Shown piece by piece: positions 4,238 through 30,836 of a stretch of DNA of 64,000 bases. This DNA is from Candidatus Undinarchaeales archaeon (lineage in GTDB: Archaea; SpSt-1190; JASMDC01). The stretch is from assembly GCA_030753015.1 (NCBI GenBank), contig JASMDC010000006.1, positions 80,563 to 144,562 on the forward strand, given 5' to 3'. The number at the start of each line of letters is the position of its first letter. Position 1 is the stretch's first letter. The translations under genes were made by a program, and so were the position numbers. The notes under the pieces were generated by a model that ran no database searches, was not told the DNA's origin, and saw nothing but the letters and a program-made list of their open reading frames with translations.

Positions 4238-4240
4238 TCA

Positions 4241-8402: not shown

Positions 8403-8467
8403 CCTAGCCCCTGCGCCGACTGCAAACGAAGCCGTCGGCCAGTGGTCCCGGAGAAGGCTCGGGCGTA

Positions 8468-8854: not shown

Positions 8855-8876
8855 TTAGTTTCCACCTCGTCATAAC

Positions 8877-10919: not shown

Positions 10920-12696
10920 GCTTCTCACCTCCATACTTCTCGACGAGCGCAAGCACCTGATTCTGCATCTCGTCCTCGAGATTCTTTACGTGCGCCTCTA
11001 TCTCCTCCTCCTTCACGAACTTGGTACGTGCGATGCGCTCGCGCACGGGGATGGCGAGGAGGTCAGCCAGGGGGATTCTCTCGGCCAGCACCCCGAGACC
11101 GGCGTTGTGCATCTTGAGGATAAGGCCCATGATGAGCAACTGCTTCCTTCCCGAGGTGTAGGTGTCCACTTCGTGGAAGGCGTTCTGCTGGAGGAAGTCC
11201 TCGCGGATCGACCGCGTCGTCTCGAGCAGGAACCTGTCAGAGGGCCGGAGGGCATCGGGGCCCACGAGCTTCACGATCTCCTCGAGCTCCGCCTCCTTCT
11301 GGAGGAGCTTCATAGCCTCCTTTCGCAGCCCCTTCCACTCGGCGGACACGTTGGTGCGCCACCACTCCTCGACGTCATCCAAATACAGGGAATAGCTCTG
11401 GAGCCAGTTGATGCTCGGGAAGTGCCTGCGGTCGGCAAGCTTAGCGTCCAGGGCCCAGAACACCTTTGTGATACGCAGCGTGTTCTGGGTCACCGGCTCC
11501 GAGAAGTCCCCTCCCGGCGGGGACACGGCCCCAACCACGGTGAGGGACCCCTCCCGTTCGTCGGTCCCCAGGGTGATAACCCGACCTGCACGCTCGTAGA
11601 ACGCGGCCACCTTGGATGCCAGGTAGGCGGGGTAGCCCTCCTCCCCGGGCATCTCCTCCAGCCGCCCCGATATCTCTCGGAGTGCCTCGGCCCACCGCGA
11701 CGTAGAGTCGGCCATGAGACCTACCGAATAGCCCATGTCCCGGTAGTACTCCGCTAACGTGATACCCGTGTAGATGCTGGCCTCTCTTGCAGCCACCGGC
11801 ATGTTGGACGTGTTGGCGATGAGCACGGTCCTGTCCATGAGAGGCAGACCCGACTTGGGATCCTTGAGCTCGGGGAACTCGCGGAGCACGTCGGTCATCT
11901 CATTGCCGCGTTCTCCACAGCCGATGTAGACGATGATGTCCGTGTCAGCCCATTTCGCGAGCTGGTGCTGGGTAACGGTCTTACCGCTCCCGAACGGGCC
12001 CGGAATGCAGGCAGTGCCGCCCTTGGCGATGGGGAAGAACGTGTCGAGTATACGCTGGCCGGTGATGAGCGGGATATGAGGTGCCAGCTTCTCCTTGTAC
12101 GGCCGTCCACGGCGCACGGGCCACTTCTGGAGCATGTTGACCTGCCGTTCCCCCTCGGGGGTCTTGATGACCGCCATCACGTCCTCGACGACATACTCGC
12201 CCTTCTTGGTGACGGAGGCCACGCTTCCGTCCGCGTCAGAGGGCACGAGGATCTTGTGCTCGACCAGGGCGCTCTCCTGAACGACCCCGACCACGTCGCC
12301 CGCCTTCACGGTATCGCCCTTCTTCACCCGTGGCTCGAAGACCCACGTCTTCTTCCTGTCAAGTGGATCAGCCTCCACCCCCCTGATGATGAACTCGCCG
12401 GCCTTCTCCTTGATGACCTGCAGGGGTCGCTGGATACCGTCGAAGATCGCCCCCATGAGCCCGGGGCCGAGCTCCACGGAGAGCGGCATGCCCGTGCTCA
12501 CCACGGGCTCACCGACGCTCAGACCCGAGGTCTCCTCGTAGACCTGGATGGTTGCCGCGGCACCTAAGAGGCCGATGACCTCGCCTATGAGGCCCTGTTT
12601 CCCGACCCGGACCACGTCGAACATCTTGACGCCCTTCATTTCATCGGCATCGATGACCGGTCCTGCTACCTTAACGATCTTGCCTTCTATTGCCAT
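10912..12696 (-). CDS. atpA: A-type ATP synthase subunit A (catalytic)
   Basis: Catalytic subunit of the A1 head (594 residues) that synthesises or hydrolyses ATP. The Walker A motif [11 protein letters not shown] lies near residue 235. The A-specific non-homologous region (about residues 115-190) and the [23 protein letters not shown] segment are intact. There is no intein, although archaeal atpA genes sometimes carry one at the P-loop. Upstream atpF ends 2 nt before it, and atpB overlaps its 3' end by 8 nt. Confidence 0.97.
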
Positions 12697-12698
12697 TG

Positions 12699-13043
12699 CT
12701 ATCCACCTTCTTCATCCTTTGCCAGGATGTCAACACCCACCGCCCTCTTGATAAGCACCCGCACCTCATCCATTGCCGTCCCCTGGCTTCCATGCTTGTC
12801 GGGCAGGGGGAGGACCACGGGAAGGAACTGCTCCTCCGTGATGGCTTGGATGGTCTTGATGAGCTTGGGGGCAAAGAACTCTGTGATTAGGATGAGCGCC
12901 ACGTCATCGTCGCGGCGCAGTCTGAAGAGATGCTGCTCTGCCTCCTCCACGGTGTCGGCCTCGTACGCTCGGGTGACGCCTGCGAACCTGAAACCGATGA
13001 CGGTATCACGGTCCCCTATGACAGCGATCTCGTAGCTAGACAT
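12699..13043 (-). CDS. atpF: A-type ATP synthase subunit F
   Basis: Small Rossmann-like rotor subunit (114 residues) that binds subunit D in the central stalk. The segments [20 protein letters not shown] and [15 protein letters not shown] are family hallmarks. Two in-frame ATGs exist. The one at 13043 is preferred because GAGGG lies 6 nt upstream; the ATG at 13049 would abut the same GAGGG. It overlaps the atpC stop by 8 nt. Confidence 0.92.
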
Positions 13044-14226
13044 AGACATCCCTCACGACACCGTGCAGCTTCTCCTTGTCCATGTTCTCGAACTTTGCGT
13101 GGAAGATCATTTTGAGTATGACAGCTTCTCGCTCCATCATGAGCGCGTATGTGATGATGGGATCGGGTGAGAGGGTCCGAGAGAGCGTGCGCTCCCTGGC
13201 CCCTTGCAGGAGGGCATTGTCGCACGCCCGTTCGAAGGCGGAGACTGAGAGGTCACCCTTGCACGTTGAGGCGGCCTTGCTCGCTAGCTTGACGATATCC
13301 GGCTCGGAAAAGGCAGCACTTATCGCATCAGGGTGCTCCCCGAGCAGGTCGTGGAATCGCTCCACATGGATCGTGCCGCTCGGCATGAAGGCCTCCTTCG
13401 GGAGATCCTCCTGATGGTGGAGGTGTGCACGGACAAGTGTCTTGAGGTTCTGCACGTCCACAAGGCTCTTGAGGATGTTCCGGGCCAGGTCCGCTCGCCT
13501 CCCCATGCTCTCGGACAGCTTCGTGTTAAGGAGGGCGAAGAATGCCGTGTCCAAGGCATACGCCACATGCTGGGGATCGATCTCCACCTCTTTATCGCTC
13601 CCCCCGTGGCGGATGATGTACGGAGCGTATGTGGATAGGGGCCCCTCCTGGTCTGTCCCCGTTTTCTTGGCTGTAGTGATCGCCCCGAACGTCCTTTCCA
13701 GGCACGCCGCGTACCCTGTATCGCCCACCAACCCGGGAAGCGCGTCAAGCTCTTCGGCCTTGGCCATTGTCGCCAGCGACTCCTCAGAAAGGGTGCCTGC
13801 ATAGGAGAGCGTCCGCTCGATATGGTCGGGTGGACGCCCCTGCAGCTTGCCGCGCACGACGGCGTGAAGATTGTGTAGGTCGTGGCGCGCCTGGAGGACG
13901 TCGACGAGCACGCGGTCCTCCTCCGGGAGGAGGGAACGCACCAAGACGTACGTGCGCAGGAGCGTCTTGTCAGCAGCGAGGTCGAAGTCGCGCCACTCAC
14001 GCACTTGCCTCAGGTCCTGGCTATAGCTCGAGTCGCCAAGGGCCTTGAGCACCTCAAGGTGCGTTGACGTCTCTACCAACTCATCGATCCTGGCCTTCCG
14101 GAGGAGCCGGTTCTCAAGGGCTCGCACCCTCCCGAGGCCGTACGCGTACTTAGAATCCTCCATACCGTTGAGGCCCAGGTAGGTGAGGACGGCGCCGGAC
14201 CCGAAGATGAAGGATTCAAGGAGCAT
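13036..14226 (-). CDS. atpC: A-type ATP synthase subunit C
   Basis: Funnel-shaped subunit (396 residues) linking the rotor stalk to the K ring, the counterpart of V-type d / AhaC. It is helical and lacks sequence motifs apart from the family repeats. Supporting segments are YAYGLGRVRALENRLL near the N-terminus and the C-terminal RDVYV end. Its identity is strengthened by the fixed E-C-F-A order. It is slightly longer than the usual 340-360 residues, with an N-terminal hydrophobic start (LESFIFGSGAVLTYLGLNG). Confidence 0.9.
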   Translation of the reverse strand: MLLESFIFGSGAVLTYLGLNGMEDSKYAYGLGRVRALENRLLRKARIDELVETSTHLEVLKALGDSSYSQDLRQVREWRDFDLAADKTLLRTYVLVRSLLPEEDRVLVDVLQARHDLHNLHAVVRGKLQGRPPDHIERTLSYAGTLSEESLATMAKAEELDALPGLVGDTGYAACLERTFGAITTAKKTGTDQEGPLSTYAPYIIRHGGSDKEVEIDPQHVAYALDTAFFALLNTKLSESMGRRADLARNILKSLVDVQNLKTLVRAHLHHQEDLPKEAFMPSGTIHVERFHDLLGEHPDAISAAFSEPDIVKLASKAASTCKGDLSVSAFERACDNALLQGARERTLSRTLSPDPIITYALMMEREAVILKMIFHAKFENMDKEKLHGVVRDVYV

Positions 14227-14236
14227 TCACGATCAC

Positions 14237-14839
14237 CTACGAGAACAGCTCTTTTGCGATCTTTGACCTCAACCCGTCCATGCGAAGCTCGAGCAACGCA
14301 TCAAAGGACGCATTCACCTCGATCTCACCGCACCGGAGCACGATCCCGCCGATGATGGCTCGGCCCTCACGCGAGAGGGTGAGGTGCTTCGTCCCAAGGT
14401 CGTTCTCGACCTGCTTCAGATCATTATCTGAGAGCACGCCGTTCTTCCTGTCCCGTTCAGGGAGGATGACCTCGATATCGGGGCCCGGGAGGTCTTCTGC
14501 TCCCTTCCTAATCCACGAGAGCAGGAGACCTTTGTACTCCTTCCCCCTCGTGAACGCCTCGAGGTTCTCATGAACCCGCTCAATGGTCTCGAGGATGAGC
14601 TTATCCTTGGCCCTGAGCAGGTTGCGCTTGGGCTCCATCGTGCCCACGGCGAGGATCTTCTGTTGCTCGATCCTGGCCTCGCGCTCGGCCTCCCGCATGA
14701 TCCCCTCCCTTATATGCTCACCATCCGCCCTGGCACGGGCCAGGATATCGTCTGCCCTCGCCCGCGCCTGGGAGAGCTCCCGCTCAACATCCTTCTCCGC
14801 GTCAGCGAGGATCTTGCTACCTATCTCCTCTAAACCCAC
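14237..14839 (-). CDS. atpE: A-type ATP synthase subunit E (peripheral stalk)
   Basis: Peripheral-stalk subunit of 200 residues. The first half is a long charged coiled coil (DAEKDVERELSQARARADDI), and a globular C-terminus with GGIVLRCGEIEVNASFDALL holds the A/B head. The frame stays open 40 codons upstream into atpK, but the GTG at 14839 is chosen: GGTGATC precedes it by 5 nt and the product then matches the family length. With subunit H it forms the right-handed coiled-coil stator. Confidence 0.93.
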   Translation of the reverse strand: MGLEEIGSKILADAEKDVERELSQARARADDILARARADGEHIREGIMREAEREARIEQQKILAVGTMEPKRNLLRAKDKLILETIERVHENLEAFTRGKEYKGLLLSWIRKGAEDLPGPDIEVILPERDRKNGVLSDNDLKQVENDLGTKHLTLSREGRAIIGGIVLRCGEIEVNASFDALLELRMDGLRSKIAKELFS

Positions 14840-14864
14840 TGTGAGATCACCTTCTCTGCCCGTA

Positions 14865-15344
<480 letters not shown>

Positions 15345-15356
15345 TTATACACCTCT

Positions 15357-17402
15357 TTAAGCATTCAAACCACTCCCTTGGTTAATTCTGAGGTATTGAA
15401 CCTCTTTCTTGAATGGGGAGAACCTGCGCCCTCCCCCCTCTAGGAACTTACCGAACCATTCAACGTAGTGAAGCCTCGCCGTGTGGATGAATCCCGAGAG
15501 GGCGCTGAGGATCACATTCACCAGGTGGCCGAAGATGAAGAGAGGGATGGCCACGATGAGACCCAGCGCTCCGAAAGAGGTCACTACCATCACGGAGAGT
15601 GAGTCCACCACGTTGGCGATGACCGCCGAAGCCAGCCCTAGGGCGAGGATCCTTGTGTACGACAGGACGTCCCCCAGGTACCCAACGAGGCCATAGAGAC
15701 CAATCAGGCCCACACCAAGCCGTTGGATGGGATTCTTGAAATTCCTACCGAAGAAGAGGACGACGATGATGACGCCCAAGCCGATGAGGGTCTTGGACAC
15801 AATCAGGTACTCCTTGCCGATGGTGCCCGCGTCGATGAGAGCGTAGGCAACGATCCCTGTGAGGAGCATGAGCCATGGAAGGTCGTCCATGAGCGCGTCG
15901 GGCCACCTCCCCATCCGGATGTTCTTGTAGGCTGCGAACAGGATACCGGACATGAGGTGGATGATTCCAAAAGCGATGGTGAGGTACAGGAACTTCATGG
16001 GTTCAGCGAGGGGATCGAAGAGGGAGAAGCGCGAGAGGATGGGTATGTACAGGCTCGGGTACTCCTTGGGACTCGTGAAGATGTTCCCCAGCCAGCTCCC
16101 TCCCACGAGAGCGCCGGCCACGATGCCGAAGAAACCGCCGGCCATGAGGACATACATGAGCTTTCGTGCAGCCCCGGTGAGCCCCTTGATGAAGATGAAG
16201 TATGAGGAGAGGAGGATGAGGATGATGCCATAGCCTGCGTCCGTGAGGCAGAAGCCGAAGAAGACGGCAAAGAATGGCATGATGAGGGGGGTGGGGTCCA
16301 CCTCCCGATAGGAGGGGAGCCCGTACAGCTCCTGCACAAGCTCGAAGGGCGAGACCCGATCATCGTTATCCAGGATCACAGGGACGCTGTCCTCCGGGTC
16401 GGGATCAACCGCCTTCACCTCAACCTTCCCATCCGCGACCTCGTCGAGCACAGTCCGAATCCTCGGGACATCATCAGCCTTCGCCCACCCCGTGATGACA
16501 AAGAGGTTCGTGCTTTGTGCAAGGTTCCGCTCGACATCAAGGCCCTGTTTCTGGAGGGACAGGGCGTCGAAGAGCATCTGGAGCTTCGGCTTGGACGACG
16601 CGACCCTTTCAAGGAACGAACCCTCCGCCTTCTTGATGTTATCCTTCAGGTCCCGGATCTCTGTGCCCAGCCGTTCAGCGACCTCGGAAGGGGTGCCCTT
16701 TGCGTGGGGGAGGCGTGCTTCCTTGGCGAAGCGGTTGAGCACATCCCTGGCCTGCTCGTCGGCCGACTTGTGATACACTACCAAGAAGAGTCTTTCCGCT
16801 CCCTTTGTGCCAAGGTCCTCCGTGTGAACCGCCCCCCCTGTCTCCTCTGCTACGGTCCGAAGACCCTGGTGGAGGGGTTCTACGTTGTTCTGGAGGCATG
16901 TTATCAGGAGCACCCGTGTATGGGGTGTGTCCGTGAGGTGGTCAAGCCGGAGCTGGAGGGCCTCGAAGCCCTTGAGCTGTTCGAGCATCTGCTCTCTGCG
17001 GCCGATCTCCTCTCGAAGGTACGAGAGCCTGCCCTCAACCTCCCGTGCCTCGACCTCGGCAGCGGCGATGATGTTCTCCCCTGACGGGACCACTTGAGCG
17101 AACTCGTCTTGATCGACGTCGAGGAACGTCTTGATACCGATGAGCGAGTCGATGAACGGCGTCTGAGCAGGAGGCTCGTATCGCTTGAACAGGCCGAGGA
17201 GGCTTCTCACCCTGGAGAGCTTGGTCTCGACATCGTCCGCTTCCTCTGGGATGACACCAAAGGAGATGTGCTCGCTCTCCTCGTCGTCGGTGCTGCGGAT
17301 AGCCTCGACGTGAAGCAGGCCGAGATCGTGGAGTGCCGAGATGATCGGCTCCTTGACCTCTCTAACCGAGAGGATGGTGAGCTTCTTGATTAGGGTGATC
17401 AT
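15357..17402 (-). CDS. atpI: A-type ATP synthase subunit I (stator, ion channel)
   Basis: Stator subunit of 681 residues (V-type a subunit). The N-terminal half (about 1-350) is a cytoplasmic coiled-coil arm anchoring the peripheral stalks. The C-terminal half has seven to eight transmembrane helices that form the two half channels against the K ring (GYGIILILLSSYFIF; YTRILALGLASAVIANVVD, where the conserved Arg lies). The gene follows atpH by 15 nt. The length is typical for archaeal subunit I. Confidence 0.96.
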   Translation of the reverse strand: MITLIKKLTILSVREVKEPIISALHDLGLLHVEAIRSTDDEESEHISFGVIPEEADDVETKLSRVRSLLGLFKRYEPPAQTPFIDSLIGIKTFLDVDQDEFAQVVPSGENIIAAAEVEAREVEGRLSYLREEIGRREQMLEQLKGFEALQLRLDHLTDTPHTRVLLITCLQNNVEPLHQGLRTVAEETGGAVHTEDLGTKGAERLFLVVYHKSADEQARDVLNRFAKEARLPHAKGTPSEVAERLGTEIRDLKDNIKKAEGSFLERVASSKPKLQMLFDALSLQKQGLDVERNLAQSTNLFVITGWAKADDVPRIRTVLDEVADGKVEVKAVDPDPEDSVPVILDNDDRVSPFELVQELYGLPSYREVDPTPLIMPFFAVFFGFCLTDAGYGIILILLSSYFIFIKGLTGAARKLMYVLMAGGFFGIVAGALVGGSWLGNIFTSPKEYPSLYIPILSRFSLFDPLAEPMKFLYLTIAFGIIHLMSGILFAAYKNIRMGRWPDALMDDLPWLMLLTGIVAYALIDAGTIGKEYLIVSKTLIGLGVIIVVLFFGRNFKNPIQRLGVGLIGLYGLVGYLGDVLSYTRILALGLASAVIANVVDSLSVMVVTSFGALGLIVAIPLFIFGHLVNVILSALSGFIHTARLHYVEWFGKFLEGGGRRFSPFKKEVQYLRINQGSGLNA

Positions 17403-18087: not shown

Positions 18088-18333
18088 CTATTGTACTTCA
18101 GGCTTACGTACTTCAGGCTTACCGGGATCACGTGATGCACCTCCACTTCACGCACAACGGCTATACTATAATGGGTGTTCCGCCAGGATGAGATGAACAT
18201 ATAGATCGCTACTTGGGCGAGATTCCCCCTCATCCTGTCCGTGCTACTTTGTGCTATGGCAACACACAGGCCGCCCCCACCTACATGGTTTTAAGGCGAG
18301 GGTTGTTTGAAAGGATGCTCGCGGGGCACCATC
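18088..18333. other. Intergenic region upstream of the first glutamate dehydrogenase
   Basis: It holds the 15-bp duplication, a perfect palindrome ATCACGTGAT (about 18126-18135) and a TATA-like GGTTTTAAGG at 18287-18296 that would start transcription near 18317, giving a leader of about 16 nt. No further gene is seen. Confidence 0.5.
18093..18122 (+). repeat. Perfect 15-bp tandem duplication
   Basis: GTACTTCAGGCTTAC occurs twice head to tail immediately after the stop codon of the coiled-coil ORF. It looks like a recent slippage duplication; no function is evident. Confidence 0.85.
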
Positions 18334-19617
18334 ATGGCACACAAGAATGACCTGTTCACGAATGTCATCGAACAGATTGACAAGGCAAACAGAATCCTGA
18401 AACTGGAAGCCGGTATCGTAGAGATCCTCAAACAGCCCCAGCGAGAGCTCATCGTATCCCTCCCGATCAAGATGGACGATGGCCGTGTACGGGTGTTCGA
18501 GGGATTCCGTGTCCAGCATAACTACGCTCGTGGTCCCACAAAAGGTGGAATCCGTTACCACTCCGAGTTGAGCCTGGACGATGTCCGAGCGCTGGCCGCC
18601 TGGATGACATGGAAGTGCGCCGTGGTCAACATCCCCTACGGTGGCGCCATGGGCGGGGTGATCTGCGATCCTAGTACCATGACATCTAGGGAGCTCGAGC
18701 GCCTCACGCGGCGGTACGCCTATATGATCCTTCCCCTCATCGGTCCAGAGAAGGACATCCCCGCTCCCGACGTATCGACGAACGCTCAGACCATGGCATG
18801 GTTCATGGACACGTTCTCCATGTTCCAGGGCTACTCCGTACCGGGAGTCGTGACTGGCAAACCGGTTTCTTTGGGCGGCTCGAAGGGGCGAACCGAGTCC
18901 ACGGGCAACGGACTGATGTTCGTCGCCCGAGAGGCACTCAAGCATAAGGGGATATCCATGGATAGCGCATCCTGTGCCGTCCAGGGATTCGGGAACGTGG
19001 GCAGCCACGCCGCTCTGTTCATGCACCAGAAGGGATCGAAGGTAGTGGCAATCTCCGACCTGTCGGGCGGTATCTTCAATCCCGATGGCATCGACCTACC
19101 TGCAGCCTTCGACTACGTTAAGACTGGCAAGAGTGGTCTCATCAAAGGCTTCGAGAAGCTCCAGAATGGATGCACTTTTGTGAAAGGAGCGGCCGCTGCG
19201 ACCAAGCAGCTCCTTGAATTGCCTGTGGACGTACTCATCCCCGCGGCTTTGGAACACCAAATCACTGGTGAGAATGCGGACCGTATCAAGGCCAAGGTCA
19301 TCGTAGAGGGTGCCGATGGCCCGACCACTTCCGAGGCGGATGAGATCCTGTTCAAGAAGGGCGTGTTCGTGGTGCCCGATATACTAGCCAACGCTGGCGG
19401 GGTGACAGTGTCGTATTTCGAGTGGGTGCAAGACCTTCAGGCCCACTTCTGGAGCGAGCATGAGGTCAGGGTGAAGCTGCGAGATGTCATGGTTGCGGCC
19501 TTTGAGAACGTCCTTGAACTCTCGAAGAAGCATGATGTCGATATGCGCACCGCAGCCTCCTGTATCGCCCTCAAACGTGTCGCTGACGCCATCACCATGC
19601 GCGGTATATTCCCTTGA
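18334..19617 (+). CDS. Glutamate dehydrogenase homologue with substituted catalytic lysine
   Basis: Glu/Leu/Phe/Val dehydrogenase family, archaeal/clostridial NAD-type subfamily, 427 residues (normal length). The substrate lysines Lys70 (PTKGGIRYH) and Lys94 (MTWKCAVVN), the catalytic Asp146 (IPAPDVST) and the C-terminal NAGGVTVSYFEW are present. The catalytic lysine in the PYGGxKGG motif is Met106, however (PYGGAMGGV; codon ATG at 18649-18651). This single change is expected to abolish or strongly alter deamination, so the protein may be regulatory, form mixed hexamers or have another activity. The ATG at 18334 is used; a TTG 27 nt upstream is less likely. A second, intact GDH of another subfamily follows. 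Confidence 0.9.
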   Translation: MAHKNDLFTNVIEQIDKANRILKLEAGIVEILKQPQRELIVSLPIKMDDGRVRVFEGFRVQHNYARGPTKGGIRYHSELSLDDVRALAAWMTWKCAVVNIPYGGAMGGVICDPSTMTSRELERLTRRYAYMILPLIGPEKDIPAPDVSTNAQTMAWFMDTFSMFQGYSVPGVVTGKPVSLGGSKGRTESTGNGLMFVAREALKHKGISMDSASCAVQGFGNVGSHAALFMHQKGSKVVAISDLSGGIFNPDGIDLPAAFDYVKTGKSGLIKGFEKLQNGCTFVKGAAAATKQLLELPVDVLIPAALEHQITGENADRIKAKVIVEGADGPTTSEADEILFKKGVFVVPDILANAGGVTVSYFEWVQDLQAHFWSEHEVRVKLRDVMVAAFENVLELSKKHDVDMRTAASCIALKRVADAITMRGIFP

Positions 19618-19743
19618 AAAACCCTCCGTGTCAGCATACTCCGCCTTCACGAAGATTTGTGTGCAATCGGGCATCCCCTACGGAGGAACTGATTCCCCAG
19701 CAGAGGTTCTCCTGCAAAGAGGATACTCCTTTCGACTCTTGAA

Positions 19744-19771
19744 TCCCTCCTCGCCGCTTAAGCGGGAGGGA
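19744..19771. terminator. Hairpin downstream of the first glutamate dehydrogenase gene
   Basis: TCCCTCC/GGAGGGA plus CGC/GCG stems with one bulged T and a 7-nt loop, 127 nt past the stop codon. It is not followed by a clean T tract, so termination is only a possibility. Confidence 0.4.
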
Positions 19772-19883
19772 CGAAAAGTTATTGTTAAACAAATAGGGAT
19801 TATATTTAGTAAATCACTCGCGACGGGCAGACGGGTATGCGATAGCATGACGCGGGTTATGTCGTGACATACCTTCGGGAAGG

Positions 19884-19893
19884 TTTATATATT
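19884..19893 (+). promoter_or_regulatory. TATA-box promoter of gdhA
   Basis: TTATATATTA preceded by GGAAGG; predicted start near 19914. This leaves a 76-nt leader ending in GGTGAT 5 nt before the ATG. Confidence 0.65.
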
Positions 19894-19980
19894 AACTCTT
19901 AATAAGCACGCGCGGTCATGGGTCGTCATTCGTGGCCGGAGAATGGAATAGCAGACGTAGAGGGTATATGTTAAATATAG

Positions 19981-21318
<1,338 letters not shown>

Positions 21319-21465: not shown

Positions 21466-21951
21466 ATGAATCCCGATGAAACCGATATTGTCAAACAAGT
21501 CGAAAAGATCGTCGAGGAGCACGGCCCATACACGAAGTCCCTCATACCCATCCTGCAGGACATACAGGAGGAATACGGGTACGTGCCCGGCGTGGCGATC
21601 GCGACCATCGCCGGGCGGCTCGGCATCTCCGGGGACGTGATCTACGGTGTGACCACGTTCTACTCTCAGTTCAGGTTCAACAGCCCCGGCAGGCACCATA
21701 TCAAGGCATGCCTGGGCACTGCCTGCCACGTGCGGCGGGGATCCATGCTCCTTGAGGCAATCGAGCGTCGCCTGGGGATATCCCACGGTGAGACAACGCC
21801 GGACGGCCTCTTCAGCCTTGAGAAGGTGGCGTGCCTGGGGTGCTGCGCCCTGGCCCCGGTGATCGTGGTCGACGATCAGGTGTTCGGTACCTGCACTCCC
21901 GCGAAGGTTGATGGCATCCTGTCCCGCTACGAGGGCGAGGAGAGTGCGTGA
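21466..21951 (+). CDS. NuoE/HydC-like [2Fe-2S] thioredoxin-fold subunit
   Basis: Homologue of the 24-kDa NuoE / HydC / HndA subunit (161 residues). The helical N-terminus (residues 1-75, SLIPILQDIQEEYGYVP) is followed by the thioredoxin-like domain with four [2Fe-2S] ligands in ACLGTACH and KVACLGCCALAP. It passes electrons to or from the flavin subunit encoded next. GGAGGG lies 8 nt before the ATG, and the next gene starts 1 nt after the stop. It opens a five-gene operon with NuoF-, NuoG-, NfnA- and NfnB-like genes. Confidence 0.92.
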   Translation: MNPDETDIVKQVEKIVEEHGPYTKSLIPILQDIQEEYGYVPGVAIATIAGRLGISGDVIYGVTTFYSQFRFNSPGRHHIKACLGTACHVRRGSMLLEAIERRLGISHGETTPDGLFSLEKVACLGCCALAPVIVVDDQVFGTCTPAKVDGILSRYEGEESA

Positions 21952-21952
21952 C

Positions 21953-23869
21953 ATGGGCTTCGATGCCGTCCGAAAGAGGGCGAAGGCCTCGTGGGACGGG
22001 CTCGTCAGCAGCTCCATTCCCGTGATATACTTCGGCGCGGCCTCCTGCGGGAGGGCGGCAGGAGTGATGGCCGTCAAGGAGGCCGCGGTCAGGTATCTTG
22101 ACCGTACGGACACCGATGCCAGGCTCGTCGACGTGGGCTGCATCGGCCCCTGCTGCTACGAGCCGCTTGTGTACGTCCAGAAGCCGGGGAGGCCGCCCAT
22201 CTGCTACTCCAACATGGACCCTGATGGGATAGAGACTCTCCTGGAGGGCTACCTTGCGAGTGACGATCCGATGGGGGATATGGCACTGGGCGTGCTGGGG
22301 GACGAGGCCGTGGACGGCATCCCGCCGCTCTTTGAACACCCCATGCTGGCACCCCAGGTGCGGCTCGTGCTGCGCAACTGCGGTATCATAGATCCCACCG
22401 AGATCGACCACAGTATCGCCCATGGTGGGTACGAGGGAATACGAAAGGCCCTGTCCATGACGCCCGAGGAGGTCATCGAGGAAGTGAAGGCCTCCGGGCT
22501 CCGCGGGAGGGGCGGCGCAGGATTCTCCACGGGTACCAAGTGGGCGTTCTGCAGGGACGCCGAGGGTGAGCCTAAGTACTTGATATGCAACGCGGACGAG
22601 GGCGATCCGGGGGCGTTCATGAACCGCTCGCTACTGGAGGGCGACCCCCACACCGTGCTGGAGGGGATGCTCATCGCAGGCTATGCAATCGGGTGCCGTC
22701 ACGGTTACGTCTACATCAGGGCTGAGTACCCCCTCGCAATCGAGCGCCTGATCCACGCCATCGAGCAGATGAGGGCGCACGGCCTGCTCGGCGAGAACAT
22801 CATGGGCTCGGACTTCTGCTTCGACATCGAGATCAAGAAGGGGGCCGGCGCGTTTGTGTGCGGCGAGGAGACCGCGCTCATGGCTTCCATCGAGGGGAAG
22901 AGGGGCATGCCTAGGACAAGACCCCCGTTCCCGGCGACCTCGGGTGTGTGGGGTAAGCCCACGAACATCAACAACGTGGAGACCCTCGGGAGCCTCGCGA
23001 ACATCATCCGGATGGGAGCAGAGGAGTACGCAATGCAGGGATCCGACACGGCCAGGGGGACGAAGACCTTCTCCCTGGTGGGCAAGGTGAAGAGGACGGG
23101 GCTGATCGAGGTCCCCCTCGGCACCCCGGTGAAGGAGATCCTCTTCGGGATCGGTGGTGGCATCGAAAACGACCGGCAGTTCAAGGCGGTGCAGACCGGT
23201 GGGCCCTCTGGGGGCTGCATCCCGCGGTCGAAGCTGGATCTCCCCGTAGACTACGAGTCCCTCCAGGAGGCAGGCGCCATCATGGGCTCGGGTGGGATGA
23301 TCGTCATGGACGATGAGACCTGCATGGTGGACGTGGCCCATTACTTCCTATCCTTCACCCAAGCCGAGTCCTGCGGCAAGTGCGCACCGTGCCGCATCGG
23401 CACGAAGCGGATGCTGGACATCCTGGGAAAGATCAAGGACGGGAACGGAGAGATGGGGGACCTTGATGAGCTCGAATCCCTCTCCTGGACCATCCAGAAC
23501 GGCTCCCTCTGCGCGCTGGGGCAGACCGCCCCCAATCCCGTCCTGACCACCCTGCGCTATTTCAGGGACGAGTTCGAGGAGCACATACGCGAGGGGCGCT
23601 GCCGTGCCCGCGTGTGTAAGCCGCTCATCCGCTACGAGATAGTGGAAGAGCGCTGCATCGGGTGCGGGGCCTGCCAGAAGCGGTGCCCTGTAGATGCTAT
23701 CTTGGAGACCAGCCGACCGGTCACGAAGGGCAAGGGCAAGACAAGGGCCATCGATCCCAAGCTCTGCGTCCGCTGCGGCATCTGCCTTTCCGTGTGCCCG
23801 CCGAGCGCGGACGCCGTCGAGAAGTTCTCGCCCGCCACCGCAGAGGTGGCCGGGGGTGGCGGCCGATGA
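21953..23869 (+). CDS. NuoF/HydB-like NAD(P)H- and FMN-binding subunit
   Basis: Flavin subunit of 638 residues. Order: an N-terminal thioredoxin-like [2Fe-2S] domain (about 15-100, CGRAAG and GCIGPCCYE); the NuoF core with the FMN/NAD loop GRGGAGFSTGTKW near residue 184 and NADEGDPGAF; the [4Fe-4S] motif ESCGKCAPCRIGTKRM near 470; and a C-terminal two-cluster ferredoxin domain (CIGCGACQKRCPVDA, CVRCGICLSVCPP). This architecture is that of HydB/HndC in bifurcating hydrogenases rather than plain complex I. The ATG at 21953 follows GAGGAGAG and the previous stop; the frame is open upstream, but that part lies inside the previous gene. The 3' end overlaps the next gene by 4 nt. Confidence 0.94.
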   Translation: MGFDAVRKRAKASWDGLVSSSIPVIYFGAASCGRAAGVMAVKEAAVRYLDRTDTDARLVDVGCIGPCCYEPLVYVQKPGRPPICYSNMDPDGIETLLEGYLASDDPMGDMALGVLGDEAVDGIPPLFEHPMLAPQVRLVLRNCGIIDPTEIDHSIAHGGYEGIRKALSMTPEEVIEEVKASGLRGRGGAGFSTGTKWAFCRDAEGEPKYLICNADEGDPGAFMNRSLLEGDPHTVLEGMLIAGYAIGCRHGYVYIRAEYPLAIERLIHAIEQMRAHGLLGENIMGSDFCFDIEIKKGAGAFVCGEETALMASIEGKRGMPRTRPPFPATSGVWGKPTNINNVETLGSLANIIRMGAEEYAMQGSDTARGTKTFSLVGKVKRTGLIEVPLGTPVKEILFGIGGGIENDRQFKAVQTGGPSGGCIPRSKLDLPVDYESLQEAGAIMGSGGMIVMDDETCMVDVAHYFLSFTQAESCGKCAPCRIGTKRMLDILGKIKDGNGEMGDLDELESLSWTIQNGSLCALGQTAPNPVLTTLRYFRDEFEEHIREGRCRARVCKPLIRYEIVEERCIGCGACQKRCPVDAILETSRPVTKGKGKTRAIDPKLCVRCGICLSVCPPSADAVEKFSPATAEVAGGGGR

Positions 23870-26163
23870 GGATCACCATCGACGGAGCGGAGGTGCCCTT
23901 TACGGAGGGCCAGACCATCCTCGAGGCAGCCCGCGATGGCGGCATCTACATCCCTACTTTGTGCGCCCACGAGGGGCTCCCGCCCCTCGGTGCGTGCCGC
24001 CTCTGCGTGGTGAAGGTGGAGGGCATGCGGGGGTTCCCGCCCGCGTGCAGTATCCCTGCCGCAGACGGGATGGTAGTTCATAGTGAAGCTGAGGAGGTCA
24101 TGCGGCTCCGCCGGAACGTCCTGGCGCTCATCCTGATCGAGCACCCCCACGCCTGCCTCGTGTGCGGCGAACGCGAGGAGTGCGAGAAGCTTCGGGGCGA
24201 TCCGGAGAAGGCGGGGAGAGTCACTGGTTGCTCAACCTGCCCCAAGCGGCCAACCTGTGAGATACTCGAGGTCGCCGATTACCTGGGGATGGCCGACACC
24301 GGCATCCCCATGGTGTACAAGGGACTACCGGTGGAGCGTGACGACCCGTTCCTCGACAGGGACTACAACCTGTGCATCCTGTGCGGCCGGTGCGTTCGCA
24401 TGTGCCAGGATGTGCAGGGCGTGGGCGCCATCGCCTTCACCCACCGCGGGAATTCAACGAAGGTCGGAACCTTGTTCGGGCGTCCCCACCTCCTCGGGCC
24501 CTGCCGCTTCTGCGGCGCCTGCATCGACGTATGTCCCACCGGCGCCCTGTCGGCACGGGGGAGCAAATGGCACGGCGAACCCGACGCGACCACCGCGTCG
24601 ACCTGCGCCTTCTGCTCCCTTGGATGCCCAGTGGTGCTCGAGGTGAAGTGGGACAGGGTTATGGCGGCCGTACCTGGCAAGCAACGGGGCAGCGGACACG
24701 CGTGCGCATGCGTCTACGGCAGGTTCTGCATCCCCGCTGTGGTCAACGCCTCCAACCGGCTGCGCTACCCACGGATCAGAAAGGACGGCACACTCGCACC
24801 AGTATCCTGGGACGAGGCGTTCCACTACGTCGCGGATGCTTTTGAGGGCGTCTCACCAGCGGAGACGGGCTTCCTGATATCCCCTCATGTCACGAGCGAA
24901 TCCGCCTGGCTGATCCGGAGGCTCGCCCGGGATGTGGTGGGCACCAGCAACATCGATGTACTGTCTTCCTTCGGACGGGCCGTGATGCGCTTTGCTGCCG
25001 ACGTTGGCGATGGAGCATCGGCCTGGGCTGGCCTGGACGACGTGGAACGCGCCGACTGGCTGCTCCTTGTGAAGGATGACGTTGTCTACAGTCATCCGGC
25101 CCTTGCAGCAGCGGTCAACTGCGCCCGCGAGCGTGGTGCCACGGTCATACTCGTGGACGACGGTGAGAACGACCTGGCGACGTCGGCGGACCTTAAGGTG
25201 CTCATCGAGCCTGGCTCGTTGAGGGCCGTGCTCGCAGCCGTTGCGAAGGGGCTCCTCGTGGAGCATGGGGACGCTGTGATCGAGGGCATCGAGGCCCTCA
25301 GCACATCCCTGGAAGGATCTACCCACGAGGGGGCCGCGAAGCTTGCCGGCATATCCGTGGAATGCCTGGGTGACATTACCAAGACCCTGCACTCATCTCG
25401 AACGGGCGTCATCGTCGTCGGTCCGCGCATCCTGGACGACCCGGAGCCGGACCAGGTGCTCGCCGCTATCCGCGACCTGCTGGTGCTTCGCGGTGTTGAG
25501 CGGGGCTTCATGCCGCTGGTGGAAGAGGGCAACCTCAGGGGAGCGTACGAGGCTGGCGGCTTCCTGGACACGAGTGAGGGAGACAAGGACGTGATGGACG
25601 CACTGCGCCGCGGCGATGTGAAGGTCCTCGTCGCCGGCGAGGGCTCGATCCCTCCCGACGACATCCCCGAGGGGACGTTCCTTGTGATATCGGAGCCACA
25701 TCCCTCTGTGCTGGACGACCGGGCCGATGTTATCTTCCCCTCGGCCGTCTTCACCGAGGAGGACGGGCACTTCACCTCGCTCGACGGCCGAGAACGGAAG
25801 CTTGCAAAGGCTGCAGATCCACCTGGCATGGCCATGCCCGATTGGATGATCACCGCGGGGCTGGCGCGGGTCATGGGAGCCTGCGGATTCGAGCATGGCT
25901 CCAGTGAGGAGGTCCACCGGGAGATGGCGAAGGCCATCTCCCTGTTCCCGGGGAAGGAACGACCTTCCTTCCCATCCCGTAGGGAGCTGCTCCCCATCGC
26001 GGATACGTGCTCGCTCCATCTGGGCGAGCACGCGAGGGCGACGATGCGCTACCGGGGCACGGCCCTGCACGAGCTCGTGGGGGACCTGCGCATCTACCTC
26101 GAGGCCAGGGGGCGTATCCCAATGAAGGACTCAGAGGGATCCGAGAAGGAGGGAACACGATGA
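23866..26163 (+). CDS. NuoG/HydA-like multi-iron-sulfur subunit without hydrogenase H-cluster
   Basis: Electron-wire subunit of 765 residues. The N-terminus has a [2Fe-2S] domain (Cys33, 44, 47, 61), a His93-x3-Cys97-x2-Cys100-x5-Cys106 [4Fe-4S] site, an extra cysteine set (122, 125, 131), and two [4Fe-4S] ferredoxin motifs (170-180 and 213-223). A molybdopterin-oxidoreductase-like domain follows with CAFCSLGC (Cys247, 250, 254) and Cys280 or Cys282. There is no Sec/Cys molybdenum ligand, the domain is shorter than in formate dehydrogenase, and there is no H-cluster. It therefore looks like NuoG or a decatalysed FdhA-type scaffold. The start overlaps the previous stop (ATGA), and the same overlap joins it to the next gene. 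Confidence 0.9.
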   Translation: MRITIDGAEVPFTEGQTILEAARDGGIYIPTLCAHEGLPPLGACRLCVVKVEGMRGFPPACSIPAADGMVVHSEAEEVMRLRRNVLALILIEHPHACLVCGEREECEKLRGDPEKAGRVTGCSTCPKRPTCEILEVADYLGMADTGIPMVYKGLPVERDDPFLDRDYNLCILCGRCVRMCQDVQGVGAIAFTHRGNSTKVGTLFGRPHLLGPCRFCGACIDVCPTGALSARGSKWHGEPDATTASTCAFCSLGCPVVLEVKWDRVMAAVPGKQRGSGHACACVYGRFCIPAVVNASNRLRYPRIRKDGTLAPVSWDEAFHYVADAFEGVSPAETGFLISPHVTSESAWLIRRLARDVVGTSNIDVLSSFGRAVMRFAADVGDGASAWAGLDDVERADWLLLVKDDVVYSHPALAAAVNCARERGATVILVDDGENDLATSADLKVLIEPGSLRAVLAAVAKGLLVEHGDAVIEGIEALSTSLEGSTHEGAAKLAGISVECLGDITKTLHSSRTGVIVVGPRILDDPEPDQVLAAIRDLLVLRGVERGFMPLVEEGNLRGAYEAGGFLDTSEGDKDVMDALRRGDVKVLVAGEGSIPPDDIPEGTFLVISEPHPSVLDDRADVIFPSAVFTEEDGHFTSLDGRERKLAKAADPPGMAMPDWMITAGLARVMGACGFEHGSSEEVHREMAKAISLFPGKERPSFPSRRELLPIADTCSLHLGEHARATMRYRGTALHELVGDLRIYLEARGRIPMKDSEGSEKEGTR

Positions 26164-27020
26164 GCTACCGTATAGTCCACAAGGAGGAAGTGGTTCCCAA
26201 TGTCCACAAGCTGGTGATTGAGGACCCGCGCATCGCCCGGACCGCACAGCCCGGACAGTTCGTGTTGCTCATGCCCACCGAGGAGGGTGAACGCACACCC
26301 ATCACCCTCTCCGACTGGGACGTGGAAAGGGGCACTATAACGCTCTACGTGCTGGAATTTGGCATCACATCCATGAAGCTTGCGAATATGACGGAGGGCG
26401 ACACCGTGTTCAGCCTCGCCGGCCCACTCGGCCTACCAACACGGGTGGAGCAATTCGGCACGGTGCTCCTGGGGGGCGGGTGCTACGGCATCGGCGGCAT
26501 ACTCCCTGTCGCCAGGGCCATGAAGGAGGCCGGGAACCACGTAGTGGTGATAATAGAGGCCCGTAGCAACTTCCTGCTCTATAACAAGGAGGAGCTAGGC
26601 TCCGTTGCGGACGAGCTCCATGTCACGACAACGGACGGTTCCGAGGGGACGAAGGGTCACAACTGGGACCTGATAGGAGAGCTCCTCGACGAGGGCCGGA
26701 CCTTCGACCGGGCCTACTTCGTGGGCTGCACCCGCATGCTGATGAGATGCGCTGAGGCAACCCGGCCAGCCGGGATCCCCACCGGTGTAGCGCTCAATGC
26801 CATCATGGTGGACGGTACCGGGATGTGCGGCTGCTGTCGGGTCACCGTGGGCGGGAAGACGAGGTTCGTGTGTGTGGACGGTCCTGAAATGGATGGACAC
26901 GAGGTGGATTGGGAGGAGCTGTTCAACCGCAAGTGCTCCTACCGGGGAGACGAGGCGCGCGCCTACCAGACCCACACGTGTCGAGTGACCGGTGCTCGTG
27001 TGAAGGGGAGTGATTCTTGA
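26160..27020 (+). CDS. nfnA: NfnA-like FAD/NAD(P)-binding [2Fe-2S] subunit
   Basis: Ferredoxin-NADP reductase-like protein (286 residues) of the NfnA / SudB / PyrK group. The FAD-binding beta barrel comes first (PGQFVLLMPTEEGERTPITL), then the nucleotide-binding domain (GGGCYGIGGILPVARAM). A C-terminal [2Fe-2S] site follows with VDGTGMCGCCRVTVGG and RFVCVDGPEMDGHEVDW. It overlaps the preceding NuoG-like gene by 4 nt and the following NfnB-like gene by 1 nt. In NfnAB the small subunit binds NAD(H), and the pair couples ferredoxin and NADH to NADP. Here it may act with the three preceding subunits. Confidence 0.88.
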   Translation: MSYRIVHKEEVVPNVHKLVIEDPRIARTAQPGQFVLLMPTEEGERTPITLSDWDVERGTITLYVLEFGITSMKLANMTEGDTVFSLAGPLGLPTRVEQFGTVLLGGGCYGIGGILPVARAMKEAGNHVVVIIEARSNFLLYNKEELGSVADELHVTTTDGSEGTKGHNWDLIGELLDEGRTFDRAYFVGCTRMLMRCAEATRPAGIPTGVALNAIMVDGTGMCGCCRVTVGGKTRFVCVDGPEMDGHEVDWEELFNRKCSYRGDEARAYQTHTCRVTGARVKGSDS

Positions 27021-28450
27021 TGGTGAAGCCGGGAGAGAGGGACCGTGTGAAGATGCCGGAGCAACTGCCCGAGGTGCGTGCCCGTAACTTCGAGGAGGTG
27101 CCCTTGGGCCTCACCGCAGAGCTGGCCGTCGCGGAGGCGGAGCGTTGCCTCAACTGCAAGAAACCGTTCTGCGTGGATGGATGCCCGGTGAGCGTCAAGA
27201 TCCCCGAGTTCATCTCCCTGATAAGTGAGGGCAGGTTCGCCGAGGCCGCACGGAAGGTGAAGGAGACCAACGCGCTCCCCGCTGTGTGCGGACGGGTGTG
27301 CCCCCAGGAGGTCCAGTGCGAAGCAAGGTGCGTGCTCGGCAAGAAGTACGAGCCCGTGGCCATCGGCTACTTGGAGCGCTTTGTCGCCGACCACGAGCGC
27401 GAGAATGATCTGATCGAACTGGCGGAGCGCGCCCCCTCCACTGGGAAGAAGGTAGCGGTCATCGGCGCAGGCCCCTCCGGGCTCACTGTGGCAGGGGATC
27501 TCATCAAGCTCGGGCACGACGTGGTGATATTCGAGGCGCTCCACAAGCCCGGCGGCGTCCTCACCTACGGCATCCCCGAGTTCCGCCTCCCCATGCGCGT
27601 CATCGAGGCCGAGGTCGCCAACCTGCTGGAGCAGGGCGTGAGTCTGGAGATGGACTCGGTCATCGGCAAGGTGCGGACCGTGCGCGAGCTGATGGAGGAG
27701 GATGGATTCGACACCGTGTTCATTGGTGTGGGCGCAGGCCTGCCGCGCTTCATGGGCGTGCCCGGTGAGAACCTCAACGGTATCTACTCGTCCAATGAGT
27801 ACCTCACGCGCTCGAACCTCATGAACGCCTTCCGCTTCCCCGAGTACGACACACCCGTGGAGCGGGCGAGGAAGGCAGTGGTCATCGGCGGCGGCAATGT
27901 TGCCATGGACTCGGTGCGCACGGCACTACGCCTGGGAGCAAAGGATGCCATCATCGCCTATCGCCGCGCCCGGGAGCAGCTGCCGGCCCGGACGGAGGAG
28001 ATCCACCACGCCGAGCAGGAGGGCGTGCGGTTCCACTTCCTGACGGCCCCCATCCGCTTCATCGGCGATGACCGCGGATTCGTGAAGGCAATGGAGTGCA
28101 TCTGCATGGAGCTGGGCGAGCCCGACGCCAGCGGCAGGAGACGGCCGGTTCCTATAGAGGGCTCCAACTTCATCATGGAGGCGGACCTTGTGGTAATCGC
28201 CGTCGGTACGAACTCCAATCCTCTGCTCACCTCCACCATGCCGGAGCTGGAGCTGAACAAATGGGGCAACATAGTCACCAACGAGGACGGCGCCACCAAC
28301 ATCGAAGGTGTGTACGCCGGTGGCGACATCGTCACGGGCAGCGCCACGGTGATCGAGGCCATGGGTGCGGGGCGCCGCGCCGCGAGGGCGATGCACGAGT
28401 ACATGACTGAAGGACGGTGGAAGGTGGAGAGGAAAGAGAGCGAGAAATGA
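27020..28450 (+). CDS. nfnB: NfnB-like (glutamate synthase small chain-type) flavoprotein
   Basis: Flavoprotein of 476 residues, homologous to NfnB and to GltD. The N-terminal helical domain carries two [4Fe-4S] clusters (CLNCKKPFCVDGCP; CGRVCPQEVQCEARC). The FAD-binding Rossmann motif GAGPSGLTVAGDL is near residue 150. The NADPH-binding domain shows VIGGGNVAMDSVRTALRLG and YRRAREQLPA. No glutamate synthase large chain is present, which favours the bifurcating transhydrogenase role over glutamate synthesis. The ATG at 27020 shares its first base with the previous stop; GGGGAGTG lies 8 nt upstream. It is the last gene of the five-gene operon. Confidence 0.9.
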   Translation: MVKPGERDRVKMPEQLPEVRARNFEEVPLGLTAELAVAEAERCLNCKKPFCVDGCPVSVKIPEFISLISEGRFAEAARKVKETNALPAVCGRVCPQEVQCEARCVLGKKYEPVAIGYLERFVADHERENDLIELAERAPSTGKKVAVIGAGPSGLTVAGDLIKLGHDVVIFEALHKPGGVLTYGIPEFRLPMRVIEAEVANLLEQGVSLEMDSVIGKVRTVRELMEEDGFDTVFIGVGAGLPRFMGVPGENLNGIYSSNEYLTRSNLMNAFRFPEYDTPVERARKAVVIGGGNVAMDSVRTALRLGAKDAIIAYRRAREQLPARTEEIHHAEQEGVRFHFLTAPIRFIGDDRGFVKAMECICMELGEPDASGRRRPVPIEGSNFIMEADLVVIAVGTNSNPLLTSTMPELELNKWGNIVTNEDGATNIEGVYAGGDIVTGSATVIEAMGAGRRAARAMHEYMTEGRWKVERKESEK

Positions 28451-28532: not shown

Positions 28533-30836
28533 ATGGCCGCCCGGAAGAACTATCTGCTCAAACGCATCCTCAATGACCGGAAGTTCATCGAGTACGCCCT
28601 CCAGTGGGAAGGCCTGGGTCTCTCGTATGTGCGCTACAAGCAGATGGGGCCGGCAGTGCACCCCGATGAGAAGAAGATCCTGCTCGAGAACATCGCACGG
28701 CTTGTGATCACCAGTGACGAGGCTCACGTGTCCTACATCGCGAACCTCTTCGATTATGATGACCTCATCAAGATCGAGGAACGCATCTTCGGAAAGGGCA
28801 AGATCGGCGGGAAGAGTACGGGGATGCTGCTCGCTTTCAACGCCCTGCACAGGCACAGGGAGCATCTGGGATTCGAGGTCAGGATCCCAGACTCATGGTA
28901 CTTGGGCAGCAACATGGACACCGAGTTCCTGACCTTGAACGGCTTGCAACGGTTCGAGAATGCCAAGTGGCAGGAAAGCATCCAGTTGGATAACTACAAT
29001 GAGTTCATGGAGCTGTTACCCGAGACCCGTCTCCCTCAGAAGATCCTCAAGAAACTACGCTCCCTGCTCCGAGAGACCCACGGTACACCCCTGATCCTCC
29101 GCTCCTCGTCGCTCCTCGAGGACAGCCATGGAACCCCCTTTCCTGGGATGTATGAAAGCTACTTCATCCCGAACTGTTATTCTTTGACAGAGAACCTGAG
29201 GATGACGGTCGACGCTGTCAAGAACATCTACTCATCGATCTTCAAACCTGACTGCTTCAACTACCGGAAGAAGAAAGGCCTATTGCAGGAATATGAGGCC
29301 ATGGCCATACTGATACAGAAGGTCGTGGGGGGAAGGTACACGAGCCCCGAGGGCAAGGAGTATTTCTCCCCGCTCTTCTCCGGGGTTGGATTCTCGCAGA
29401 ACTGCTATCCCTGGTCGAAGGAGGTACGTCAAGGCGATGGTGTCGTGCGGCTTGCCCTGGGTCTCGGCACTGCTGTGGTCTCCCTTCCAGAGGAAGCGGA
29501 GGAGGCCGGTGTGTTCGTATGCGATCTCTCAACGTTCAGGACCCCCGCCCCCGAGGAACAGCTCAAGTCCTCCCAGAGGCTCGTCCATGCGGTGGACCTC
29601 CAAGAGACGGATATCAAAAAGACCATCAAACACCTCCCCATAAAGGACGTCGTGGCGTACAATGGTCTGTCGAGCCTTGGAGAGGGCCAGAACGGGGTCG
29701 AGGCGATCATCAGTATTCAGGAGGACTCGGGCAGTCTCGCACGGGCCTCAGGATACAACCTTCAAAAGGGATTCCCGTTCATCACCTTCCACTCCATCGA
29801 GAAGAAGTGGGGGCCGAGACTGAGAGAGGTCGTGAAGATAATCGAGTTCGCCTATGCAAAGAACGAGATGCACACGTTCCTCGACGAGTCGAAATGGACG
29901 CTCGTCGGGACGATCATCGGCGACTGCCCAGGGGACATCCGGGAGAGGCTCAAGGCGGATGACCTGTCCGATCCATTCGGGAGCATGATCGAAGCCGCTC
30001 AATTATCCTCCGAGATGAAGGAGAACCTGCACTACGTGGTCGAGGCCAAGAGGCTATTGGAGAACCTTTCCGATTATCCATCATTCAAATCAGCCCTAGG
30101 ATCGCTGTCCAATAAGGATCTGAAGGAGAGGCTCGGCCAGATAATAAGAAGGCACGCCATCGACATCGAATTCTCGGTCGTGGGCGACATACTCTACATA
30201 TTACAATGCCGCCCCCTGAGCTTATACGAAGAGACAGGACTGGACGAGAGCATGCACGCCATCCCACCCGAGAGGAGGTTCATCGACGTGAAGGCGGTGT
30301 GTCCCACGGCACAACTGGACATCACACGTGTGATCTATGTGGATGATGAGAAGTACATCCACATGTCACAACAACAAAAATACGCGGTCCGGGACAAGCT
30401 GAGCGAACTGAACAACTCGATGGGCGAGTCCATTGACCAGAAGGGAACCTCACACGAGGGGGATTTCATGTTCCTCCTTCCTGGGAGGGTGGGATCCTCC
30501 CATCCGGAGCTTGGTATCCCCGTGAAGTACAAAGATATTAACAACGCCCGGATACTGGTGGAGTATCCGCTCGGGCTGCAAAAGCCGGAGTTCTCCTACG
30601 GCTCGCATTTCTATCTGAGGTTGGTAGGTGACGGGATCTACACCTTTGGAATCCAGGAAGGTGACCTGTTCCGAAGGGAGCTGATCGAGATGAATGCCGT
30701 GCAGAGGTTCTTTGACGGGGCCATTATCGTCTCGAGACTCCCCCTCGGTGTGTACATGTCCGGAGTGGAGAGAAGGGTCGTATGTGAGATGATGGAGGGC
30801 GGAGAGTACGGACCCGAAGTGCTGCTCGAGATGTGA
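28533..30836 (+). CDS. PEP synthase/PPDK N-terminal domain protein lacking the phosphohistidine domain
   Basis: 767-residue protein whose core (about 88-562) is the ATP-grasp nucleotide-binding domain of PEP synthase / pyruvate phosphate dikinase. The glycine-rich GKIGGKSTGMLL (89-100), the arginine motif ILRSSSLLEDSHGTPFPG (188-205) and the terminal SVVGDILYILQCRPL are visible. The swivelling phosphohistidine domain and the PEP-binding barrel are absent. Instead there is an N-terminal helical extension (1-87) and an unrecognised C-terminal 200 residues. It cannot make PEP alone. It could phosphorylate a partner or use ATP for another transfer. It has its own TATA box and near-leaderless start. 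Confidence 0.75.
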   Translation: MAARKNYLLKRILNDRKFIEYALQWEGLGLSYVRYKQMGPAVHPDEKKILLENIARLVITSDEAHVSYIANLFDYDDLIKIEERIFGKGKIGGKSTGMLLAFNALHRHREHLGFEVRIPDSWYLGSNMDTEFLTLNGLQRFENAKWQESIQLDNYNEFMELLPETRLPQKILKKLRSLLRETHGTPLILRSSSLLEDSHGTPFPGMYESYFIPNCYSLTENLRMTVDAVKNIYSSIFKPDCFNYRKKKGLLQEYEAMAILIQKVVGGRYTSPEGKEYFSPLFSGVGFSQNCYPWSKEVRQGDGVVRLALGLGTAVVSLPEEAEEAGVFVCDLSTFRTPAPEEQLKSSQRLVHAVDLQETDIKKTIKHLPIKDVVAYNGLSSLGEGQNGVEAIISIQEDSGSLARASGYNLQKGFPFITFHSIEKKWGPRLREVVKIIEFAYAKNEMHTFLDESKWTLVGTIIGDCPGDIRERLKADDLSDPFGSMIEAAQLSSEMKENLHYVVEAKRLLENLSDYPSFKSALGSLSNKDLKERLGQIIRRHAIDIEFSVVGDILYILQCRPLSLYEETGLDESMHAIPPERRFIDVKAVCPTAQLDITRVIYVDDEKYIHMSQQQKYAVRDKLSELNNSMGESIDQKGTSHEGDFMFLLPGRVGSSHPELGIPVKYKDINNARILVEYPLGLQKPEFSYGSHFYLRLVGDGIYTFGIQEGDLFRRELIEMNAVQRFFDGAIIVSRLPLGVYMSGVERRVVCEMMEGGEYGPEVLLEM

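Follow-up and report, generated by a model that had tools for sequence, protein, structure and literature searches.

The five-gene operon described here, from a Candidatus Undinarchaeales genome, probably encodes a single soluble Bfu-Nfn complex that couples NADPH, NADH and ferredoxin; this confidence covers the complex itself, not the scheme of bifurcations in series considered below. We judged one complex to be probable because the five-gene set recurs in other archaea, BfuA and NfnA are fused in some of them, the BfuA-linked NfnA and NfnB form clades of their own, NfnA carries a Cys/Glu/Cys (C/E/C) signature, BfuA carries a three-Cys insert, and no NiFe hydrogenase, complex I 49-kDa subunit or second NfnAB was found in the genome. 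The complex would very probably belong to the Bfu (HydABC-like) family as a variant that has kinship with Stn and Nfn-Bfu yet differs from both. No description of a BfuABC-NfnAB set was found in the open-access literature that we searched.

We analysed a stretch of 64,000 nucleotides (the window), in which the operon occupies positions 21466-28450 of the plus strand. According to the open reading frames of the window, the five genes are packed head to tail. BfuC and BfuB are separated by a 1-nt gap, BfuB/BfuA and BfuA/NfnA overlap by 4 nt, and the NfnA/NfnB junction is a 4-nt overlap if the TTG at 27017 is the start codon, or 1 nt if the ATG at 27020 is used (Table 1). Reading by eye, we found a GC hairpin with a T-rich stretch behind it, resembling a terminator, in the gap between the glutamate dehydrogenase gene and BfuC, and a TATA-like ACATATAAA, a putative promoter of its own, for the downstream gene (28533). 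The domain matches were 2Fe-2S_thioredx in BfuC; Complex1_51K, NADH_4Fe-4S and two [4Fe-4S] in BfuB; and Fer2_4, NADH-G_4Fe-4S_3 and Molybdopterin in BfuA. NfnA matched PRK06222 and NfnB matched gltA, both above the cut-off. The FeFe-hydrogenase H-cluster domain was not found in the operon proteins by Pfam, and the operon contains no complex I membrane arm or 49-kDa subunit. An earlier note on this DNA, made from the letters alone, had described tightly joined genes on one strand, encoding a HydC/HydB-like pair and an NfnA/NfnB-like pair, with no hydrogenase or membrane arm among them; all of this was borne out, and NfnA and NfnB are complete.

Table 1. Positions of the operon features and of one neighbouring gene in the window
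Feature	Position	Strand	Basis or remarks
BfuC / HydC / NuoE-like, one [2Fe-2S]	21466..21951	+	PF01257 3e-47; nearest solved chains HydC 7t2r_C, NfnC 9n5u_C, StnA 8oh5_A
BfuB / HydB / NuoF-like	21953..23869	+	FMN and NAD(H) site, [4Fe-4S], C-terminal two-[4Fe-4S] ferredoxin domain, thioredoxin-like N-terminus
BfuA / NuoG-like wire, degenerate FdhF-like domain	23866..26163	+	Pfam domains, alignment
BfuA insert in His-Cys3 motif	24163..24258	+	Extra Cys100, Cys106, Cys122 (to Cys131); predicted extra metal site
BfuA lost Mo-ligand site	24973..24978	+	Gly370-Arg371 replace Cys-His; alignment with 6tg9
NfnA	26160..27020	+	FAD, NAD(H) site, [2Fe-2S] with Asp218, Cys223, Cys226, Cys238
NfnA private signature stretch	26481..26729	+	Cys108, Glu133, Cys190, nucleotide-binding half
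NfnB	27020..28450 (TTG start 27017 also possible)	+	FAD, NADP(H) site, two [4Fe-4S], bifurcation-type Glu119
NADP-type glutamate dehydrogenase, neighbour, probably outside the complex	19981..21318	+	Domain match; homologue beside the L085 operon

In alignments with StnB, the Thermococcus sibiricus Nfn-Bfu and HydB/HydC chains, BfuB and BfuC retain the cysteines of the HydBC/StnAB bifurcating core. The sequence traits of the Bfu family are present: a NuoF core with a C-terminal two-[4Fe-4S] domain in BfuB, a [2Fe-2S] in BfuC, and a BfuA homologue with the A1-A2 clusters. BfuA retains the [2Fe-2S], His-Cys3, two further [4Fe-4S] and FdhF-type [4Fe-4S] motifs. The earlier note had called BfuA a NuoG-like wire with neither H-cluster nor Mo ligand, and this description holds, as Gly370/Arg371 align with the Cys/His Mo ligands of the formate dehydrogenase 6tg9 and the MGD-binding domain PF01568 was not found in BfuA by Pfam. 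Its suggestion of an unrecognised site in the NuoG-like domain stands in part. No Mo site is left, but the three-Cys insert is clade-specific (17 of 17 long BfuA aligned, as well as family f82; absent in FDH- and Stn-type BfuA) and predicts an extra metal site. NfnA retains the FAD motif and the Asp and three Cys of the [2Fe-2S], and NfnB retains the seven Cys and Glu119 of bifurcating NfnB as well as an Arg beside the flavin, so that every cluster and flavin ligand of Nfn (NfnAB) is present in the pair. Judging from these residues, both bifurcating sites look intact.

The host genome (98.9% complete, 5% contamination) contains one BfuB, one NfnB-grade protein and one NfnA match; thus, the operon NfnAB is its only NfnAB. 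Our search of this genome found neither a complex I 49-kDa / group 4 hydrogenase subunit nor a NiFe hydrogenase, and within the operon no other protein is an obvious third-substrate partner for BfuABC. The size of the genome is 3.8 Mb, and the listed relatives of its class have only 0.6-1.1 Mb.

BfuB was present in 55 of 394 archaeal genomes, and the surroundings were read for representatives of the carriers. In the class of genome G190, 10 of 47 genomes have a long BfuA, and nine of these carry NfnA and NfnB directly 3' in the same five-gene order; in a few of the nine sets the BfuB or NfnB frame is split or cut, as is to be expected in draft genomes. In the tenth carrier (G501) the frames are broken, and a fragment of NfnA lies at its usual position. 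Of the 83 genomes in the G138 class, 9 have a long BfuA, at 10 loci. Five genomes (G138, G464, G400, G405, and G423) have a single open frame of 896-1123 aa that encodes both BfuA and NfnA, with NfnB as the next gene. At the loci of G403, G404, and contig C299 of G405, BfuA ends in a two-cluster ferredoxin domain instead of NfnA, and in G399 and G314 the contig stops within BfuA. The synteny search that the earlier note had proposed found the homologues together, and, because the synteny recurs in other archaea, the five-gene arrangement is not due to chance. A locus in G023 (L094) was rejected as a five-gene set; a divergent ORF separates its genes, and its NfnA belongs to the ordinary type.

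Among the stand-alone NfnAB in the NfnA and NfnB trees were some from the archaeal family to which the five-gene sets belong. The BfuA-linked NfnA formed one clade (bootstrap/SH-aLRT 99/98) apart from stand-alone NfnA, and the BfuA-linked NfnB formed another (99/100) apart from stand-alone NfnB. Every BfuA-linked NfnA, among them three of family f82, has Cys108, Glu133, and Cys190, whereas stand-alone archaeal NfnA have Gly, Gly, and Pro at these positions; the latter motif, which we used as the canonical one, is a trait of the archaeal sample compared rather than a published criterion. The NfnB of the window is 62-66% identical to the linked NfnB of other archaea and groups with canonical NfnB, not with StnC. 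Only a few NfnB changes are specific to the operon, and they do not outline a clear docking face.

Several points count against a single complex. The fusion ties NfnA to BfuA, yet NfnB is not fused in any of these sets. Moreover, the BfuB phylogeny by itself does not group the five-gene sets: a clade consisting only of the 14 labelled sets was rejected (p-AU 3e-6), and a clade of these 14 plus six paralogues from the G138 class (long-BfuA or Stn-like), a grouping picked after the first tree was seen, was not rejected (p-AU 0.186). We also observed in G138, which has a BfuA-NfnA fusion, a single open frame (L086, 541-3600; 1019 aa) that contains BfuB and a GltD/NfnB-like domain.

Relatives of BfuA were found in other settings. 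L120 (1424-12268), L122, and L123 carry BfuABC paralogues whose BfuA has a two-cluster ferredoxin domain at its end. In L120, and probably in L122, genes of the Hdr type (CCG domain, multi-[4Fe-4S]) are close by, and from this gene content the two loci may encode a Bfu-Hdr complex. BfuA of all three loci keeps the insert without NfnA; thus, the link between the insert and NfnA is not absolute, which also counts against the single complex. In two f82 stretches (L179 and L180, about 5600-12500), an FDH-type BfuA with Cys-His intact and a similar three-Cys insert precedes a C/E/C NfnA, another FdhA-like gene, and a gene for a Fer4_22 protein; these genes may encode a formate dehydrogenase linked to NfnA. 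As BfuBC and NfnB were not detected in these stretches, the insert-bearing BfuA and the C/E/C-type NfnA seem to form a separate module. On the bacterial side, a BfuA scan of genome contigs gave two distant loci only and no five-gene set, and a BfuA search of 393 genomes around Thermotalea gave only FDH-like relatives, most with an in-frame TGA. In two of these relatives the motif was readable, and neither showed the insert.

Among characterised enzymes, Stn and Nfn-Bfu are nearest to the BfuABC half of the operon. Type 1 enzymes (Sporomusa ovata StnABC, 8oh5; T. sibiricus Nfn-Bfu) share with the operon a HydC/HydB-like core, a NuoG-like part without a Mo site, and an NADPH-binding GltD-like part. 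However, their NfnB-like part is fused into BfuA and NfnA is absent, whereas in the operon NfnA and NfnB are complete and separate (in relatives, NfnA is fused to the BfuA C-terminus). Schut et al. described Nfn-Bfu only as this type, with the NfnB-like part inside BfuA (PMC9304861), and Kremp et al. and Kumar et al. described Stn without NfnA (PMC7483475, PMC10482914). The fourth ligand of the flavin-side [4Fe-4S] is Lys in StnC, whose flavin is non-bifurcating (PMC10482914), and Glu119 in the operon NfnB. The Stn type also lacks the three-Cys insert of BfuA. The likeness to Stn that the earlier note had seen is therefore real, but it does not extend to NfnA or to a bifurcating NfnB-like flavin. 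NfnAB (Thermotoga maritima 4ylf, Pyrococcus furiosus 5jca) shares all of the NfnA/NfnB cluster and flavin ligands; the operon differs in the C/E/C residues of NfnA and in the tie of its genes to BfuABC. Liang et al. described four Nfn patterns and did not mention NuoG, NuoF, or HydB (PMC6405883). HydABC and Type 3 Bfu (e.g. Acetomicrobium mobile NiFe-HydABCSL, 7t2r) have the BfuBC core, a NuoG-like BfuA with A1-A5-like clusters, and extra third-substrate subunits, which in the operon are NfnA and NfnB rather than hydrogenase SL. Bam-Bfu and the ANME-1 HdrA-NfnB fusions are proposed double-site complexes in which, as in the operon, a second bifurcating module is joined to a first (PMC9304861, PMC9012536), but neither combines HydBC-type with complete NfnAB modules.

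The five subunits likely form one physical complex, with NADPH as the likely third substrate of BfuABC. In such a complex BfuA would be the wire and scaffold, and BfuBC would provide a HydBC-type bifurcating site for NAD(H) and ferredoxin. The fusion point in the relatives suggests that NfnA is held on BfuA at its C-terminus, and NfnB would sit with NfnA as in ordinary NfnAB. NADPH would enter at the NfnB FAD, where the ligands typical of bifurcating flavins are retained. From each NADPH, one electron would then pass via the NfnA [2Fe-2S] and FAD to NAD+, and the other via the NfnB clusters and BfuA to BfuBC, where it would be shared between NAD+ and ferredoxin. All steps would be reversible in principle, and NADPH formation would be possible in the reverse direction.

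Other readings of the operon have to be considered. The two halves could be separate enzymes, NfnAB and BfuABC with a third substrate of its own, that share only a promoter; both halves are known as free enzymes, and NfnAB is complete. This is unlikely, in view of the five BfuA-NfnA fusions, the operon-specific NfnA and NfnB clades, and the absence of a further catalytic subunit from the operon and of a NiFe hydrogenase from the genome. With these fusions, the clades and the recurrent five-gene synteny, the single NADH/NADPH/ferredoxin complex that the earlier note had proposed is well supported, and its phrase 'archaeal fusion of both systems' is apt. An active Mo/W formate dehydrogenase in BfuA, which would couple formate to NAD(P)H and ferredoxin, is very improbable. 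The best solved relative of BfuA is indeed FdhA (6tg9), and the NfnA-linked f82 relatives are FDH-like with Cys-His, but BfuA has Gly-Arg there and lacks PF01568, and no conserved Cys occupies the Mo-ligand place across the long-BfuA group. Stn itself contained no Mo or W in metal analysis and had no formate activity (PMC7483475).

A Stn-like enzyme with a single bifurcating site is a more serious, if still doubtful, alternative. NfnB would only feed NADPH electrons to BfuA, BfuBC alone would bifurcate, and NfnA would serve as a second port for NAD(H) or have a structural role. The non-bifurcating NfnB-like flavin of the nearest characterised BfuABC relatives (PMC10482914) speaks for this reading, whereas the NfnA [2Fe-2S] ligands and the NfnB Glu ligand, which are what StnC lost or changed, are kept, and NfnB groups with its canonical counterparts. 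As both flavin sites look intact, two bifurcations in series are the simplest scheme that uses all parts of the Bfu-Nfn complex; we regard the scheme as plausible but tentative. The Bfu and Nfn modules each catalyse the same kind of reaction alone, so joining them would be redundant unless this scheme or a similar one holds, a further point against a single complex. In its tandem form, which we put forward with comparable reserve, the low-potential electron of the NfnB flavin would not be given to ferredoxin but would pass through BfuA to BfuBC and be split again. The eight electrons of 4 NADPH would then be divided into six for NAD+ and two for ferredoxin, giving 3 NADH and 1 two-electron ferredoxin equivalent instead of 2 and 2. 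With working potentials of about -370 mV for NADPH, -280 mV for NADH, and -500 mV for ferredoxin (PMC10482914, PMC9304861), simple arithmetic on these assumed values makes the series split exergonic by about 27 kJ per 4 NADPH and the 1:1 split endergonic by about 15 kJ. Such gearing would allow a tandem enzyme to oxidise NADPH and reduce ferredoxin favourably under conditions that drive plain Nfn or Stn in reverse.

The NADP-type glutamate dehydrogenase gene lies 5' of the operon in the window, a homologue lies 3' of the operon in L085, and a glutamate dehydrogenase gene lies about 3.6 kb away in L121. This neighbour suggests that amino-acid metabolism may supply or consume NADPH. The CODH/ACS genes are also in the window (805-7128) but on the minus strand, about 14 kb from the operon with the ATPase operon in between; ferredoxin supply from the complex to CODH/ACS, which the earlier note had suggested, is therefore possible, but the link is not specific. 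On that strand (805-17402), cdhA, cdhC, cdhD, and a CooC-like ATPase adjoin an archaeal A-type ATP synthase operon. Other features of the window are two adjoining, unlike glutamate dehydrogenase genes (18307-21318), one archaeal type and one NADP type; a 767-aa protein (28533-30836) whose sole match is PPDK_N (ATP-binding), without the other PEP synthase domains; and a 346-aa ORF (41123-42199) without a Pfam match, which ends within a tRNA-Thr gene (42124-42199) and may be no real gene.

If our reading is correct, two different intact flavin-based sites, one of the FMN/HydBC type and one of the FAD/Nfn type, are arranged around one wire, in a genome in which no NiFe hydrogenase or complex I 49-kDa subunit was found. 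The complex would allow a direct test of whether chained bifurcations change the exchange rate among NADPH, NADH, and ferredoxin. It may also bear on how parts of HydABC and Nfn could have been assembled into Stn-like enzymes, in archaeal lineages of which some look Asgard-like, an assignment that is a guess. The fusions and the gene set suggest that cells can change how the electrons of spent NADPH are shared between NADH and ferredoxin.
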